From NCBI GenBank assembly GCA_903825285.1, contig CAIJZY010000029.1, forward strand, positions 1 to 56,883: a stretch of 56,883 bases of DNA. The letters are read 5' to 3'. The stretch comes from an uncultured Opitutia bacterium (GTDB lineage Bacteria > Verrucomicrobiota > Verrucomicrobiia > Opitutales > Opitutaceae). The notes under the pieces were generated by a model that was not told the origin of the DNA, did not search any database, and saw nothing but the letters and a program-made list of their open reading frames with translations. Positions 378-53,712 of the stretch are shown piece by piece; positions within the stretch are counted from its first letter, which is position 1, and the number at the start of each line of letters is the position of its first letter. Position numbers and translations under genes: made by a program.

Positions 378-2300
<1,923 letters not shown>

Positions 2301-2740
2301 GCCGATTTACGATTTACGAGGTACGATTTACGATGTTGGCCGAGGCATGACAAAACAGGAGATGTTGCAACGCACTAAACAGTTCGCCCTGAGAGTGGTT
2401 CGAGCCGTGCAGGCTTTGCCGCGGGTGGATGAGGCGAAGATTTTGGGACGACAGCTGCTGTGGGCCGGAACTTCGGTCGGAGCCAACTGCCGCGCCGCTT
2501 GCCGGGCCAAGTCCTCCGCCGACTTCATTCACAAACTCAAGATCGTTGAGGAGGAGTGCGACGAATCGCTCTACTGGATGGAACTCTTGATCGAGGCCGG
2601 TTTTTTTCCGATCCGAAAACTGGACAACCTCATGCGCGAAGCCGACGAACGGCTTGCCATGATCGTTGCATCACTTCGCACCCTGCGCTCCCCGCGCCCG
2701 GCCACATCGTAAATCGTAAACCGTAAATCGTAAATTTCCC
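2301..2740 (+). mobile_element. IVS-like element with heptamer-repeat inverted arms
   Basis: This segment fills the whole gap between the sdhA stop and the sdhB start. The left arm (2304-2331) is four 7-bp units of consensus GATTTAC. The right arm (2709-2736) is four units of GTAAATC, the reverse complement. The two 31-base arms match at about 27 positions, and in both the third unit is the divergent one. Between them lies a 121-codon four-helix-bundle gene whose TAA stop is supplied by the first right-arm heptamer. Removing the arms and gene would leave sdhA and sdhB about 10 bases apart, so an insertion into an operon is the simplest reading. The arms would form a long hairpin in the transcript, as in 23S rRNA intervening sequences. 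Mobility is inferred. Confidence 0.72.
2347..2712 (+). CDS. Four-helix-bundle protein (23S rRNA IVS / S23 family)
   Basis: 121 aa, all-helical by composition. It carries the family signature LLWAGTSVGANCRAA followed by KSSADFIHKLKIVEEECDES and YWMELL, as in proteins encoded by intervening sequences of bacterial 23S rRNA and related to the Avd accessory protein of diversity-generating retroelements. Known relatives form small oligomeric bundles thought to bind nucleic acid; no enzymatic role is known. The ATG at 2347 follows a weak GAGG. It is unusual in sitting inside the sdh operon and between inverted heptamer arrays, with its stop codon in the right array. No reverse transcriptase or rRNA sequence is nearby. 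Family assignment is firm, function unknown. Confidence 0.88.
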   Translation: MTKQEMLQRTKQFALRVVRAVQALPRVDEAKILGRQLLWAGTSVGANCRAACRAKSSADFIHKLKIVEEECDESLYWMELLIEAGFFPIRKLDNLMREADERLAMIVASLRTLRSPRPATS

Positions 2741-2741
2741 C

Positions 2742-3554
2742 ATGGTCGCCGAAAACACCTCCAAGACCCTCAGCGTGACCCTCCGCGTCTGGCGCCAGGC
2801 CGGGCCCGACGCGCCCGGTCGCTTCGTCGATTACCCGGCGAAGAACCTGAACTCCAGCATGTCCTTCCTCGAGATGCTCGACGTCGTGAACGACGAGCTC
2901 ACGAAGCGGGGCGAGGAGCCGATCGCGTTCGCCCACGACTGCCGCGAGGGCATCTGCGGCACCTGCTCCTGCACGATCAACGGCAAGCCGCACGGGCCGG
3001 GCCACGGCATCGCGACGTGCCAGACGTACCTGCGCAGCTTCAAAGATGGCGACACCATCGTGGTCGAGCCCTTCCGCGCCCGCGCCTTCCCGCTGGTGAA
3101 GGACCTGGTGGTGGACCGCGCGGCCTTCGACCAGATCATCCAGGCCGGCGGCTTCATCAGCGTGCGCACCGGCGCCGCGCCGGACGCGAACTCGATCCCG
3201 GTGCCGAAGCCCGATGCCGACCTGGCGATGGACGCCGCGGCGTGCATCGGCTGCGGCGCCTGCGTCGCGGCCTGCAAGAACGCCTCCGCCATGCTCTTCG
3301 TCGCCGCCAAGGTCTCCCAGCTCGGCCTGCTCCCGCAGGGCCAGCCGGAGCGCGACCAGCGCGTGCTCGCGATGGTGGGCAAGATGGACGAGCTGGGCTT
3401 CGGCAACTGCACCAACCAGTACGAGTGCAGCGCCGCCTGCCCGAAGTCGATCAGCCACGATTTCATCGCCCGGATGAACCGCGACTACCTCACGGCCAGC
3501 ATCCGCGCCACGTTCAAGCCGGCCTCCGCCAGCGCCGGCGGCGGCGCGGGCTGA
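2742..3554 (+). CDS. sdhB: Succinate dehydrogenase iron-sulfur subunit
   Basis: 270 aa. It transfers electrons from the SdhA flavin to the membrane subunit through three clusters, and all three ligand sets are visible: [11 protein letters not shown] with a later IATC for [2Fe-2S], [14 protein letters not shown] for [4Fe-4S], and [13 protein letters not shown] for [3Fe-4S]. The ATG at 2742 comes directly after the right heptamer arm of the inserted element, so its ribosome-binding region is at least partly made of element sequence (GTAAATTTCCCC). This may change coupling to sdhA. A hairpin with a T-rich tail follows the gene. Confidence 0.96.
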
Positions 3555-7256: not shown

Positions 7257-7360
7257 CCGGACGAACGCCCTACGCCCAACGCCGAACATCGAACGTCCAA
7301 GGATCGTCCCGCGGCGTGGCCCCACACCGGGTCCGGCTTCGGCGTACGATGTTCGTCCGA
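7257..7360. repeat. Period-7 inverted-repeat element, CCGAACR family (site B)
   Basis: In the gpsA-to-MFS gap, six 7-bp units of the type CCGAACG/TCGAACG run from 7261 to 7302. An inverted partner of about three units lies near 7335-7359. The outer ends CGGACGAAC and GTTCGTCCG are exact reverse complements. It shares the 14-mer CCGAACATCGAACG with the array at 53564-53598 (as reverse complement). No gene lies inside. Confidence 0.65.
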
Positions 7361-14369: not shown

Positions 14370-15140
14370 ATGATCCACCCGGGGCTTGTTTCCGTCACGT
14401 TCCGCGCGCTGTCGCCGGCGCAGGTGGTCGACCTCGTGCGCCAGGCCGGGCTGCGGGGCATCGAGTGGGGCGGCGACATCCATGCGCCACCCGGCAACGC
14501 CGCCCGCGCCCGCGAGGTGCGGCACCTCAGTCTCGAGGCCGGGCTCTCGGTGGCTGCCTACGGGAGCTATTACCGCGCGGCGCAGAGCGAGGCGGCGGGG
14601 ATGCCGTTCGCCCACGTGCTCGACACGGCTCTCGAGCTGGGCGCCCCGACCGTGCGCGTGTGGGCCGGCGTTGTCGGCTCCGCCGCCGCGGACGCCGCGC
14701 ACCGGGAGCGCGTCGCGGCCGACCTCCGGCGGATCGCGACGCTCGCCGCCGCGGCCCACGTGAGCGTGTCGCTCGAGTTCCACAACGGCACGCTGACCGA
14801 CACCGCGGAATCCGCCCGGAAGCTGCTCGAGGCCGTCAATCACCCGAACCTGTTCACCTACTGGCAGCCGCCGCTCGACCGTGACACGGCGGACTGCATG
14901 GCGGACCTGCGCAGCCTGTTGTCCCGGTTGTCGAACGTGCACGTCTACCACTGGCGGCCGGCGTCCACCGACCGGCTCCCGCTGGCCGATGCCGCGGCGC
15001 GCTGGCGCGACTTCCTCGCCGTTGCCGCCGAGGCGCCGGGCGACCGTTATGCGATGCTGGAGTTCGTGGAGCGCGACGCCCCCGAGTGCTTCCTGCGCGA
15101 CGCCGCGACGCTGAGAGCCCTGCTGGCGCAGGGCGGTTGA
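14370..15140 (+). CDS. Sugar phosphate isomerase/epimerase-like TIM-barrel protein
   Basis: 256 aa from ATG 14370, MIHPGLVSVTFRALSPAQVV. The pattern of an AP-endonuclease-2/xylose-isomerase-like barrel is present: GLRGIEWGGDIHAP on strand 2, ELGAPTVRVWAG, VSLEFHNGTLTDTAE, and late VHVYHW. Such proteins bind a divalent metal through Glu, Asp and His and isomerise or epimerise sugars or inositol derivatives; the substrate is unknown. The stop codon TGA at 15138 is part of the first GTTGAAA unit of a repeat element. A second family member lies at 22706-23446. Confidence 0.78.
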   Translation: MIHPGLVSVTFRALSPAQVVDLVRQAGLRGIEWGGDIHAPPGNAARAREVRHLSLEAGLSVAAYGSYYRAAQSEAAGMPFAHVLDTALELGAPTVRVWAGVVGSAAADAAHRERVAADLRRIATLAAAAHVSVSLEFHNGTLTDTAESARKLLEAVNHPNLFTYWQPPLDRDTADCMADLRSLLSRLSNVHVYHWRPASTDRLPLADAAARWRDFLAVAAEAPGDRYAMLEFVERDAPECFLRDAATLRALLAQGG

Positions 15141-15211
15141 AAGTTGAAAGCTGACGGTTGAAAGATCGGAGGCGGCTCCGCTGCTGTTTCTTTCAACCCT
15201 CAACTCTCAGC
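15136..15211. repeat. Period-7 inverted-repeat element, GTTGAAA family (site C)
   Basis: Left arm 15136-15163 has four units (GTTGAAA twice, a divergent GCTGACG, then GTTGAAA). Right arm 15191-15211 has three inverted units (TTTCAAC, CCTCAAC, TCTCAGC). It lies between convergent genes and supplies both stop codons: TGA of the plus gene at 15138 and TGA (as TCA) of the minus gene at 15200. Its compact form could act as a bidirectional hairpin. Confidence 0.75.
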
Positions 15212-15640
15212 ACGGAGCGCCCGGGAAAAATGGTAGGACGCGATCCGCATCCGCTCCCGGAAATAGAACCGGTGGGCGTCGAAGCGCTGCACGCCGGAAT
15301 CCAGCTCCAGCAGGTCGCAGTCGCGCGCCTTCGCCTGGTCCGCGAGCCACGCGAGCAGCCGCGCCCCGTGGCCGCGCGAGCGGTGCCCGGGATCGCTCAC
15401 GAGGTCGTCCACGTAGAGCGTGCGGCCGGAGAACAGTTTCTCGTGGTAGCGGTAGCCCGCGACGGCGCGCACCGCGCCCTCCGCGGTCAGCGCGGCGAGC
15501 AGGAAGCCCTCGCGCTGCATGCGGCGCACGCGGGGCCCGAACTCGGCCTCGACGAGGTGGGGGCGCAGCTGGGCCATCACGGGGAAGCAGCGGGCGATGT
15601 CGGCGTCGGACTCGGCGAGGGCGATGTGGATCGGGTTCAT
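15200..15640 (-). CDS. GNAT family N-acetyltransferase
   Basis: 146 aa. Motif A of the acetyl-CoA site is visible as LYVDDLVSDPGHRSRGHGARLLAWLADQA, preceded by AVAGYRYHEKL and followed by DLLELDSGVQRFDAHRFYF. It transfers acetyl from acetyl-CoA to an amine of unknown identity in the cytoplasm. Its start overlaps the stop of the upstream amidotransferase-like gene by four bases, so the two are translationally coupled. The last residues (ES) and the stop are encoded by the heptamer repeat element, which suggests the original C-terminus may have been slightly altered. Confidence 0.85.
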   Translation of the reverse strand: MNPIHIALAESDADIARCFPVMAQLRPHLVEAEFGPRVRRMQREGFLLAALTAEGAVRAVAGYRYHEKLFSGRTLYVDDLVSDPGHRSRGHGARLLAWLADQAKARDCDLLELDSGVQRFDAHRFYFRERMRIASYHFSRALRAES

Positions 15641-23446: not shown

Positions 23447-23522
23447 CGGGCGGTGGTTCTACCGCCCCGCGCGCCGCGTCGCAAGCGCTGACGCTGCGGG
23501 CCCGGGCCGCTGGGCCCGGGCA

Positions 23523-23607
23523 GTTGAAAGTTGAAAGCCATGGAGCCCTTGGCAAGGGCCGGGGGCGTTCACCTCGGCCTTGCAACTTTCAACCTTCAAC
23601 TCTCAAC
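23523..23607. repeat. Period-7 inverted-repeat element, GTTGAAA family (site D)
   Basis: The left arm has two exact GTTGAAA units (23523-23536). The right arm has four inverted units (about 23580-23607: a divergent TTGCAAC, then TTTCAAC, CTTCAAC, TCTCAAC). It lies just downstream of the pilT stop and upstream of the isomerase start, both on the minus strand. A GGCGCC-TTC-GGCGCC hairpin (23608-23622) directly abuts the right arm and could be a pilT terminator. Confidence 0.72.
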
Positions 23608-23622
23608 GGCGCCTTCGGCGCC

Positions 23623-33848: not shown

Positions 33849-33860
33849 GGGAGGACGAGA

Positions 33861-33956
33861 GTTGAAAGTTGAAGGTGGAAAGTTGAAAGCCCGGAAATTG
33901 ATGGGCCCACGGCACAGGTCTGACCACCCCTTCAACTTCAACCGATTACTTTCAAC
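33861..33956. repeat. Period-7 inverted-repeat element, GTTGAAA family (site E)
   Basis: Upstream of the Sua5-type gene, the left arm has four units (33861-33888: GTTGAAA, GTTGAAG, GTGGAAA, GTTGAAA). The right arm is degenerate (about 33930-33956: CTTCAAC, an overlapping TTCAAC, TTTCAAC). The span is about 96 bases. It lies where the Sua5 gene's promoter or 5' leader would be, between its start and the rpsR terminator. Confidence 0.68.
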
Positions 33957-33986
33957 TGCCCGGCCCGCGGCCGGGCATCCAGGCAC

Positions 33987-47313: not shown

Positions 47314-47321
47314 TTTTAATC

Positions 47322-47473
47322 AGACTTCAGAGGTCAGAGATCAGAGGTCAGGGGTCAGGGGTCAGAGGTCAGACGTCAGAGATCAGTGTTTAAAGGGCGA
47401 TGGTCGCAGGGCAAAGATTAGTGGCCGTGTAAGTCTGGAATCTGACCTCTGACATCTGACCTCTAGCCTCTGG
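47322..47473. repeat. Period-7 inverted-repeat element, AGAGGTC family (site F)
   Basis: The longest array in the window: nine tandem 7-bp units of AGAGGTC type on the left (47322-47384), and five inverted units (ATCTGAC/CTCTGAC) on the right (47440-47473). The span is about 152 bases, inserted between gspE and gspF, which are on the same strand and normally adjacent. The right end abuts the gspE stop codon. No gene lies inside. The arms would pair into a long hairpin in the gspE-gspF transcript. Confidence 0.8.
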
Positions 47474-53359: not shown

Positions 53360-53563
53360 GCGGCGGCCCGGGATCGCGGCGCCGTCTCCGCTTGCGGTGC
53401 GCCCCGGAGGGGAGCAGCCAACTGCCAGCGACGTCCCCCTCCTTCGCGGGAGGGCGTGCCATCCGAAGCACAACGAGCGAAAAAGAAGCACGGTGTGACA
53501 GGCACGAAATGTCCCGCATCAGAATGGAGCCGCGGCGCCCTCGCCGCGCCGGAATTGCTTCGG

Positions 53564-53638
53564 CGTTGGACGTTCGGCGTTCGATGTTCGGCGTTCGGCT
53601 CGTCCTCCTTCTCCCATCTCCTGTCTCCCAACTCCCAA
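53564..53638. repeat. Two adjacent period-7 arrays (site H), CCGAACR and CTCCCAA families
   Basis: The 353-base gap 53360-53712 has no gene. It holds five units of CGTTCGG type (53564-53598) and, 12 bases later, four units of CTCCCAA/CTCCCAT type (53611-53638). The first array, read on the other strand, shares the 14-mer CCGAACATCGAACG with the element at 7257-7360. I could not find inverted partner arms for either, so these look like half-elements. The rest of the gap shows nothing recognisable. Confidence 0.65.
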
Positions 53639-53712
53639 ATCGAGGACCGCGAGGAGCTCGATTTTCTCTTGCCCCGCAGGCGGCGGGCGTGTCTCTTGCC
53701 CGTCCCGCTCAT

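Follow-up and report, generated by a model that had tools for sequence, protein, structure and literature searches.

A four-helix-bundle gene between inverted heptamer arrays in the sdhA-sdhB spacer of an uncultured Opitutia bacterium: a probable minimal mobile DNA element

Between two host genes of an uncultured Opitutia bacterium lies a unit of 433 bp that is probably a minimal mobile DNA element, with arms that would act as DNA recognition arrays, probably for the four-helix-bundle (4HB) protein that it encodes. It occupies positions 2303-2735 of the window, by which we mean the whole stretch of DNA analyzed here (56,883 nucleotides, contig CAIJZY010000029.1). The reading that fits the unit best is that of a mobile element of the S23/IVP family, a variant beside the intervening sequences (IVSs) of rRNA genes. 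Its interest is that armed 4HB genes and a clean insertion polymorphism bring an orphan gene family and a set of unexplained heptamer repeats together as one testable system: a candidate mobile element, some 430 bp long, which sits inside core operons, lacks a recognizable transposase, and looks to belong to a small, largely overlooked kind. The parts of the unit and its two neighbors are as follows.

378..2300, + strand: upstream host gene, sdhA in the naming of the sequence-only reading, stop codon at 2298-2300
2303..2336, unstranded: left arm, about 4.6 units of the 7-nt word CGATTTA, third unit divergent
2347..2712, + strand: 4HB gene, 121 aa, PF05635 / TIGR02436
2704..2735, unstranded: right arm, the same heptamer arrayed in inverted orientation (ATCGTAA)
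2742..3554, + strand: downstream host gene, sdhB in the naming of the sequence-only reading

Please note that the names sdhA and sdhB, like the operon names given below for other copies, come from reading the sequence and not from Pfam. The element fills the spacer between the two genes: the sdhA stop codon ends 2 nt before the left arm, and 6 nt separate the end of the right arm from the sdhB start codon. The right arm overlaps the end of the 4HB gene, whose stop codon TAA (2710-2712) is supplied by the first right-arm unit. Over 32 nt the arms (2305-2336 and 2704-2735, 367 nt apart) are 91% complementary, and TRF detects a period of 7 in each (2303-2334 and 2706-2735). Their arm score of 53 exceeds all 564 cross-locus pairings (maximum 51) and 88 distant same-locus controls (maximum 32). 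Together with the profile matches given below, these measures agree with what had been proposed from the letters alone, a 4HB gene between inverted heptamer arms in the sdhA-sdhB gap. In the window as a whole, imperfect runs number eight at period 7, two at period 6, and none at periods 5, 8, 9, 10, 11, and 13. The third unit is indeed divergent in both arms, as the sequence-only reading had it; its argument that the arms are kept as a pair does not follow, because the two units have changed differently (AGGTACG vs GTTTACG) and represent a mismatch.

The protein itself is readily placed. The open reading frame matches PF05635 (E 1.4e-17, 64.3 bits against a curated cut-off of 33.8) and TIGR02436, "four helix bundle protein" (E 9.7e-25, 86.9 bits against a cut-off of 24), and its AF2 monomer model has four helices at a mean pLDDT of 94.6. 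By query length, the closest folds are 2RLD (TM 0.82-0.85), which is also a sequence match (E 6.9e-17), and 2GSC (TM 0.76-0.81). Profile, sequence, and fold all bear out the proposed membership of the S23/IVP family. To our knowledge, the PF05635 family has no known catalytic site, and we know of no assigned role for its genes outside rRNA IVSs and the resemblance to Avd. Orthologs within the order show purifying selection on the 4HB protein, with dN/dS of 0.035-0.25 in nine pairs (dS exceeds 2 in three of these); of the remaining pairs, two deeper ones are saturated and two from plasmids have too few changes, one of the latter (L329/L336) giving 0.92. A Xanthomonas protein of the S23 family has been reported as a homopentamer (PMC4990558).

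Arms of this kind are found around most of the 4HB genes that we examined. Here, "armed" means matched inverted arms at a score of 28 or more. The bacterium's own genome holds five PF05635 genes, window copy included, at sdhA-sdhB, pheS-pheT, hom-like/thrC, trpB-like/yicC, and rfbD-rfbB, all oriented with their neighboring genes. Four of the five are armed and the fifth has a weak pair (score 20, within the control range), which agrees with the suggestion that other copies in the genome would prove to be armed. The words of the five differ: CGATTTA, GTAGCGA, AGAGGTC, AAGTGAC, and a TAAG type. PF05635 is present in 39 of the 57 related genomes searched (own included), with 191 matches summed; among the 95 loci examined, mostly the stronger ones, 63 are armed, against 18/564 cross-locus pairs and 1/88 distant same-locus controls. 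Similarly, a pan-phylum genome scan gave at least 587 4HB relatives, and 61 of the best 80 are armed, against 10/397 and 0/66 for the same two kinds of control; these best 80 include an armed locus from a Methanophagales archaeon (score 29). By this score measure, 32/95 loci of the relatives and 19/80 pan-phylum loci (the best 80 of at least 587) are without strong arms.

The 124 armed loci, 63 from the relatives and 61 from the best 80 of at least 587, share a repeat length rather than a word. Period 7 fits best at 93 of them and period 8 at 24; identity is 0.64 at lag 7 and 0.62 at lag 14, and the remaining lags between 2 and 13 give 0.24-0.36. G exceeds C in the 5' arm at 55/63 armed loci of the relatives and at 55/61 of those from the pan-phylum best 80. 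The median outer length of the elements is 477 bp. The word varies from locus to locus. A degenerate unit motif, [GC][AG]GN[AG][GT][TC], was obtained over 48 selected loci, with an information content of 2.65, compared with 2.16 for the highest of 20 nulls (the data were given 15 starts and each null 4). At orthologous junctions across genera, some elements retain a similar word even as both arms diverge and others have changed theirs; those of the first kind indicate that some copies are old residents.

Evidence for mobility consists of the presence or absence of units, not of observed transposition. The clearest case is a plasmid site at which Trichormus and Scytonema carry a 4HB unit and the approximately 97%-identical plasmids of Aulosira, Nostoc, and Tolypothrix have a spacer of 13 bp (the unfilled state was read directly in three plasmids and inferred from coverage in three more). 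The insert is 428 or 414 bp long, the difference being 14 bp, or two units, in the left arm; GTAA stands at both of its ends, and either the gene and both arms are all there or all three are missing. Two other plasmids have something else at this site: a truncated 4HB copy in Nostoc, and in Brasilonema a hairpin with the same word but no gene. So clean a presence or absence in plasmids this similar means that the unit is insertable as DNA, and the mobility suggested in the sequence-only reading is to that extent upheld for homologous units. Five further plasmid sites have filled and unfilled relatives at approximately 85-96% identity, with messier ends, and so does a reverse-oriented copy between nrdB and nrdA in Nostoc, at similar identity (approximately 85-96%). 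Target duplication is clean at the GTAA site only; it is ambiguous at two other sites (TTAG; CTAA/CTAG), and one more shows a replacement of approximately 9 bp. Over 118 elements, direct repeats in the flanks are not above the null.

Several smaller observations concern these plasmid and viral loci. Two 4HB genes, L340 and L346, are located within CRISPR-cas operons on plasmids of cyanobacteria (cas6-cas4 and cas10-cmr3), and the left array of L340 has grown to over 300 nt. The near-identical viral contigs of L326 and L328 differ in part of the left arm, which reads ACGTTGA on one contig and ACGTTCA on its counterpart. In one Nostoc strain, two plasmids (L354 and L341) have 4HB units of different words at junctions that neighbor each other in the same gene block.

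Empty sites also exist at the sdhA-sdhB junction, and within the same genus, as would be expected of an insert. We compared 30 junction loci, 29 of them with both genes. Among 12 same-genus genomes, one has the window element, seven have spacers of 4-68 bp, two have another 4HB lineage with GTCGAGG-type arms (scores 34 and 20), and the last two have remnants without a gene, 155 and 140 bp long. A tree of sdhA plus sdhB pairs a filled with an empty species as sisters (G009/G005, support 0.98) and gives the window's species G008, which has the other 4HB lineage, as its sister (0.91); the contrast between filled and empty is one between species only. In another genus, G012 has a related 4HB at sdhA-sdhB, 65% identical and with the same type of word, and in a third, G022 has a related 4HB with that type of word upstream of sdhB, at a contig start. 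Despite the similar arms at its sdhA-sdhB, G012 gave no CGATTTA match at the stringency of our search.

We propose that the element enters the gap between two co-transcribed genes as DNA, in many cases at the stop codon of the upstream gene and in the sense direction, a site at which it would cost the host little and be transcribed by the host operon. The arms would serve as arrayed recognition sites in DNA, to which the element-encoded oligomeric 4HB protein would most likely bind. Once bound, this protein may recruit a host or resident nuclease or recombinase, a step we propose because the family is without a known catalytic site. Gene-less hairpins would then be non-autonomous members of the same process, or its substrates. 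Four such features lie in the window.

15125..15221, unstranded: gene-less heptamer hairpin, GTTGAAA type
23520..23608, unstranded: gene-less heptamer hairpin, AGTTGAA type
33856..33957, unstranded: gene-less heptamer array, GTTGAAA type, whose inverted partner is weak
47319..47472, unstranded: gene-less heptamer hairpin, TCAGAGG type, the word type of a 4HB element (L003) elsewhere in the genome

The window also has adjacent arrays of different words at 53559-53641 (TTCGGCG; CTCCCAA) and a lone array at 7262-7297 (ACGCCCN), all without clear inverted partners.

These hairpins give substance to an alternative that we consider unlikely, namely that they are host repeats, made by slippage or functional at gene ends, and that 4HB genes landed inside them or are carried between them. 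The repeats are more numerous than the genes: 359 kb of the own genome contain 21 period-7 runs (counting the two arms of the window element and a few GC-rich runs), many of them hairpins with short loops, against five 4HB genes in the whole genome. In the same sample, periods 6, 9, 12, and 15 gave 13, 18, 13, and 11 runs, so that codon-multiple periods are common too, and periods 5, 8, 10, 11, and 13 gave none. Heptamer runs occur in G015 although PF05635 is absent there, and 100 kb of G024, with four PF05635 copies, gave none.

Word counts, which are pattern matches with several per long array, show the word of a resident 4HB unit dispersed through its genome, here and also in other phyla. 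CGATTTA has 26+26 = 52 matches in the own genome, five of them in the window element, 39 in the sister genome, and 0-7 in 11 others. CAGTTCT has 233, 88, and 56 matches in three genomes whose 4HB arms have this word, 22 in a fourth whose 4HB arms differ, and 0-1 in six others; GGGAATC has 18 in one genome and 0 in nine. For GTTGAAA the reversed control is uninformative, being a rotation of nearly the same word. Both arms are present at 11 of the 14 CGATTTA places fetched from the own genome, and the loops are mostly unrelated: among 18 loops of at least 25 nt, only two pairs from different loci share sequence, of 17 and 12 nt. At an apparently orthologous hairpin site in the sister genome (25 nt of flank on each side, judged by eye), the arms are kept and the loop is not. 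That arms are kept while loops are mostly unrelated is again what host repeats would show. It also led us to reject gene-less hairpins as plain internal-deletion copies, although the Brasilonema plasmid does have a hairpin of the same word where other plasmids have the gene. When the flanks of 16 own gene-less hairpins and arrays were compared with 95 4HB loci, only the one at window position 47316 matched, weakly (31-38% identity) and on both sides in order, a G022 junction that holds a 4HB gene with another word.

MITE- and REP-type non-autonomous elements are likewise short inverted-repeat units dispersed in spacers. The heptamer hairpins resemble them in this respect; they differ in having tandem arrays as arms and mostly unrelated loops, in that no transposase is tied to them here, and in that full copies encode a 4HB protein. 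The CGATTTA-family hairpins lack the shared internal sequence that marks a MITE family.

Earlier work, as far as the portions cited here go, treats heptamer repeats as simple sequence repeats (SSRs) and cites polymerase slippage (PMC4692102, PMC4679880). In Xanthomonas, two genomes have 186 and 183 heptamer repeats, with 70 and 75 convergent pairs, and the gene-less heptamers of Xanthomonas and Nostoc (GGGAATC and others) are intergenic and prefer four units (PMC4692102). They share the 7-nt array with our elements, and a Dyella 4HB element in our set has GGGAATC-type arms, but in that portion of the report they are SSR/G-quadruplex repeats generally unassociated with mobile elements, and no link to 4HB genes is made. 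The TAACTGA heptamers of Beggiatoaceae lie in many cases just upstream of start codons and are patchy across distant phyla (PMC4679880). They too are 7-nt arrays; they differ in being direct repeats (one indirect), for which a translational role was suggested, and the cited portion makes no 4HB link. In the literature that we searched, which did not extend to preprints, we found no paper linking 4HB genes to heptamer arms. Against the host-repeat account stand the arms that flank about two thirds or more of 4HB genes across many phyla, far above controls, and the T4SS plasmid case, in which gene and both arms would have entered a hairpin-free site together. In addition, matched inverted arms are not made by slippage alone.

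The sequence-only reading had favored an IVS-like element living in an mRNA and possibly excised or processed as RNA. In full, such an account would have the arms pair in the sdh transcript, RNase III cut the stem, the 4HB RNA be released, and the arms be kept for that excision stem. Much about the unit invites this comparison. It shares with the rRNA IVS of the Coxiella 23S rRNA, which has an S23p open reading frame, the protein family, complementary ends, sporadic distribution, and length, at 433 bp against 428 nt (PMC4990558). Its ends are able to form a stem, and in the predicted fold of the element RNA the arms pair throughout except at a small internal loop (z -4.5). Both neighbors point the same way in 45/67 pan-phylum loci with close neighbors (among the best 80 of at least 587; both opposite in 5) and in 40/89 loci of the order set (both opposite in 13/89), where GC-rich ORF calls are less reliable.

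Nevertheless, we regard this account as quite improbable, because the arms do not behave as a maintained stem. Arm mismatches over the 124 elements (61 of them from the best 80 of at least 587) comprise 93 of the G:U type, 123 of the A:C type, and 248 transversions, with no excess of G:U. Similarly, unit register is no better than in simulated independent arms given their best register (gain 0.045 vs 0.060 simulated, 57 loci); an early unit-by-unit signal at period 7 (p 0.0002 to 0.006) vanished against that simulation. On these two results we rejected RNA-stem maintenance as the reason for arm matching, and the claim that the arms are kept as a base-paired stem is not supported. The arms look instead like two arrays of one degenerate word, which suggests, from sequence patterns, that they may be recognition sites. 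Furthermore, a plain stem has no need of tandem heptamers, and some elements, such as that in nrdB-nrdA of Nostoc, are antisense to their host operon. The window element is flanked by two protein-coding ORFs and is not inside an rRNA gene, and 20 other 4HB loci tested gave no rRNA match. The element differs from rRNA IVSs in its place in a protein-coding operon spacer, in its tandem-heptamer arms with a copy-specific word, and in arm matching without a sign of upkeep for RNA pairing. The Coxiella IVS ORF has been reported in reductive evolution (PMC4990558), whereas the selection on the 4HB ORF here is purifying.

A part in an Avd-like retroelement, with the 4HB protein working beside a reverse transcriptase that copies the element, is highly improbable. 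The fold does match Avd (4DWL) and the complex of a diversity-generating retroelement (8UB7), more weakly than the folds named above (TM 0.73-0.78 by query length, E 0.14-0.47), and the resemblance of PF05635 to Avd has been noted in a review (PMC10053308). Identity to Avd in the fold alignment is, however, approximately 10%, and RVT_1 has 0 matches in the own genome, a 96% complete draft (a control search was positive in 3/14 genomes), so that the retroelement link raised from sequence is not borne out. Lastly, an ordinary, vertically inherited operon gene that regulates sdh is barely credible: related 4HB genes with the same type of word do lie upstream of sdhB in three genera and the protein is under purifying selection, but the same-genus genomes with empty sites, the other 4HB lineage, or remnants contradict it as the sole account, and the other copies lie in unrelated operons.

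Returning to the mobile DNA element that we prefer, it may have wider kin. We tentatively group the heptamer-armed 4HB units, the gene-less hairpins, and armed GxxExxY (PDDEXK_3) units as possible members of one widespread prokaryotic class, minimal mobile elements without a transposase of their own, in which a small oligomeric protein would read tandem words of approximately 7 nt that diversify from copy to copy. If true, this class would also explain the heptamer repeats of Xanthomonas, cyanobacteria, and Beggiatoaceae. Among 25 genes of PF13366 (PDDEXK_3; L184-L208), which by name we take to be of the GxxExxY type, 19 have matched inverted arms at a score of 28 or more, with a unit of approximately 8-10 nt around CACRGAG. 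ORF6N genes were considered as a third armed family and rejected, with 0/14 armed; at the sdhA-sdhB junction of G015 (L052), an ORF6N-domain gene (PF10543) is present without heptamer arms. In the GxxExxY arms, mismatches on the sense strand number 26 of the A:C type and 9 of the G:U type, that is, G:U on the antisense strand (19/25 loci, with six weak, identical, or gapped pairs left out by hand).
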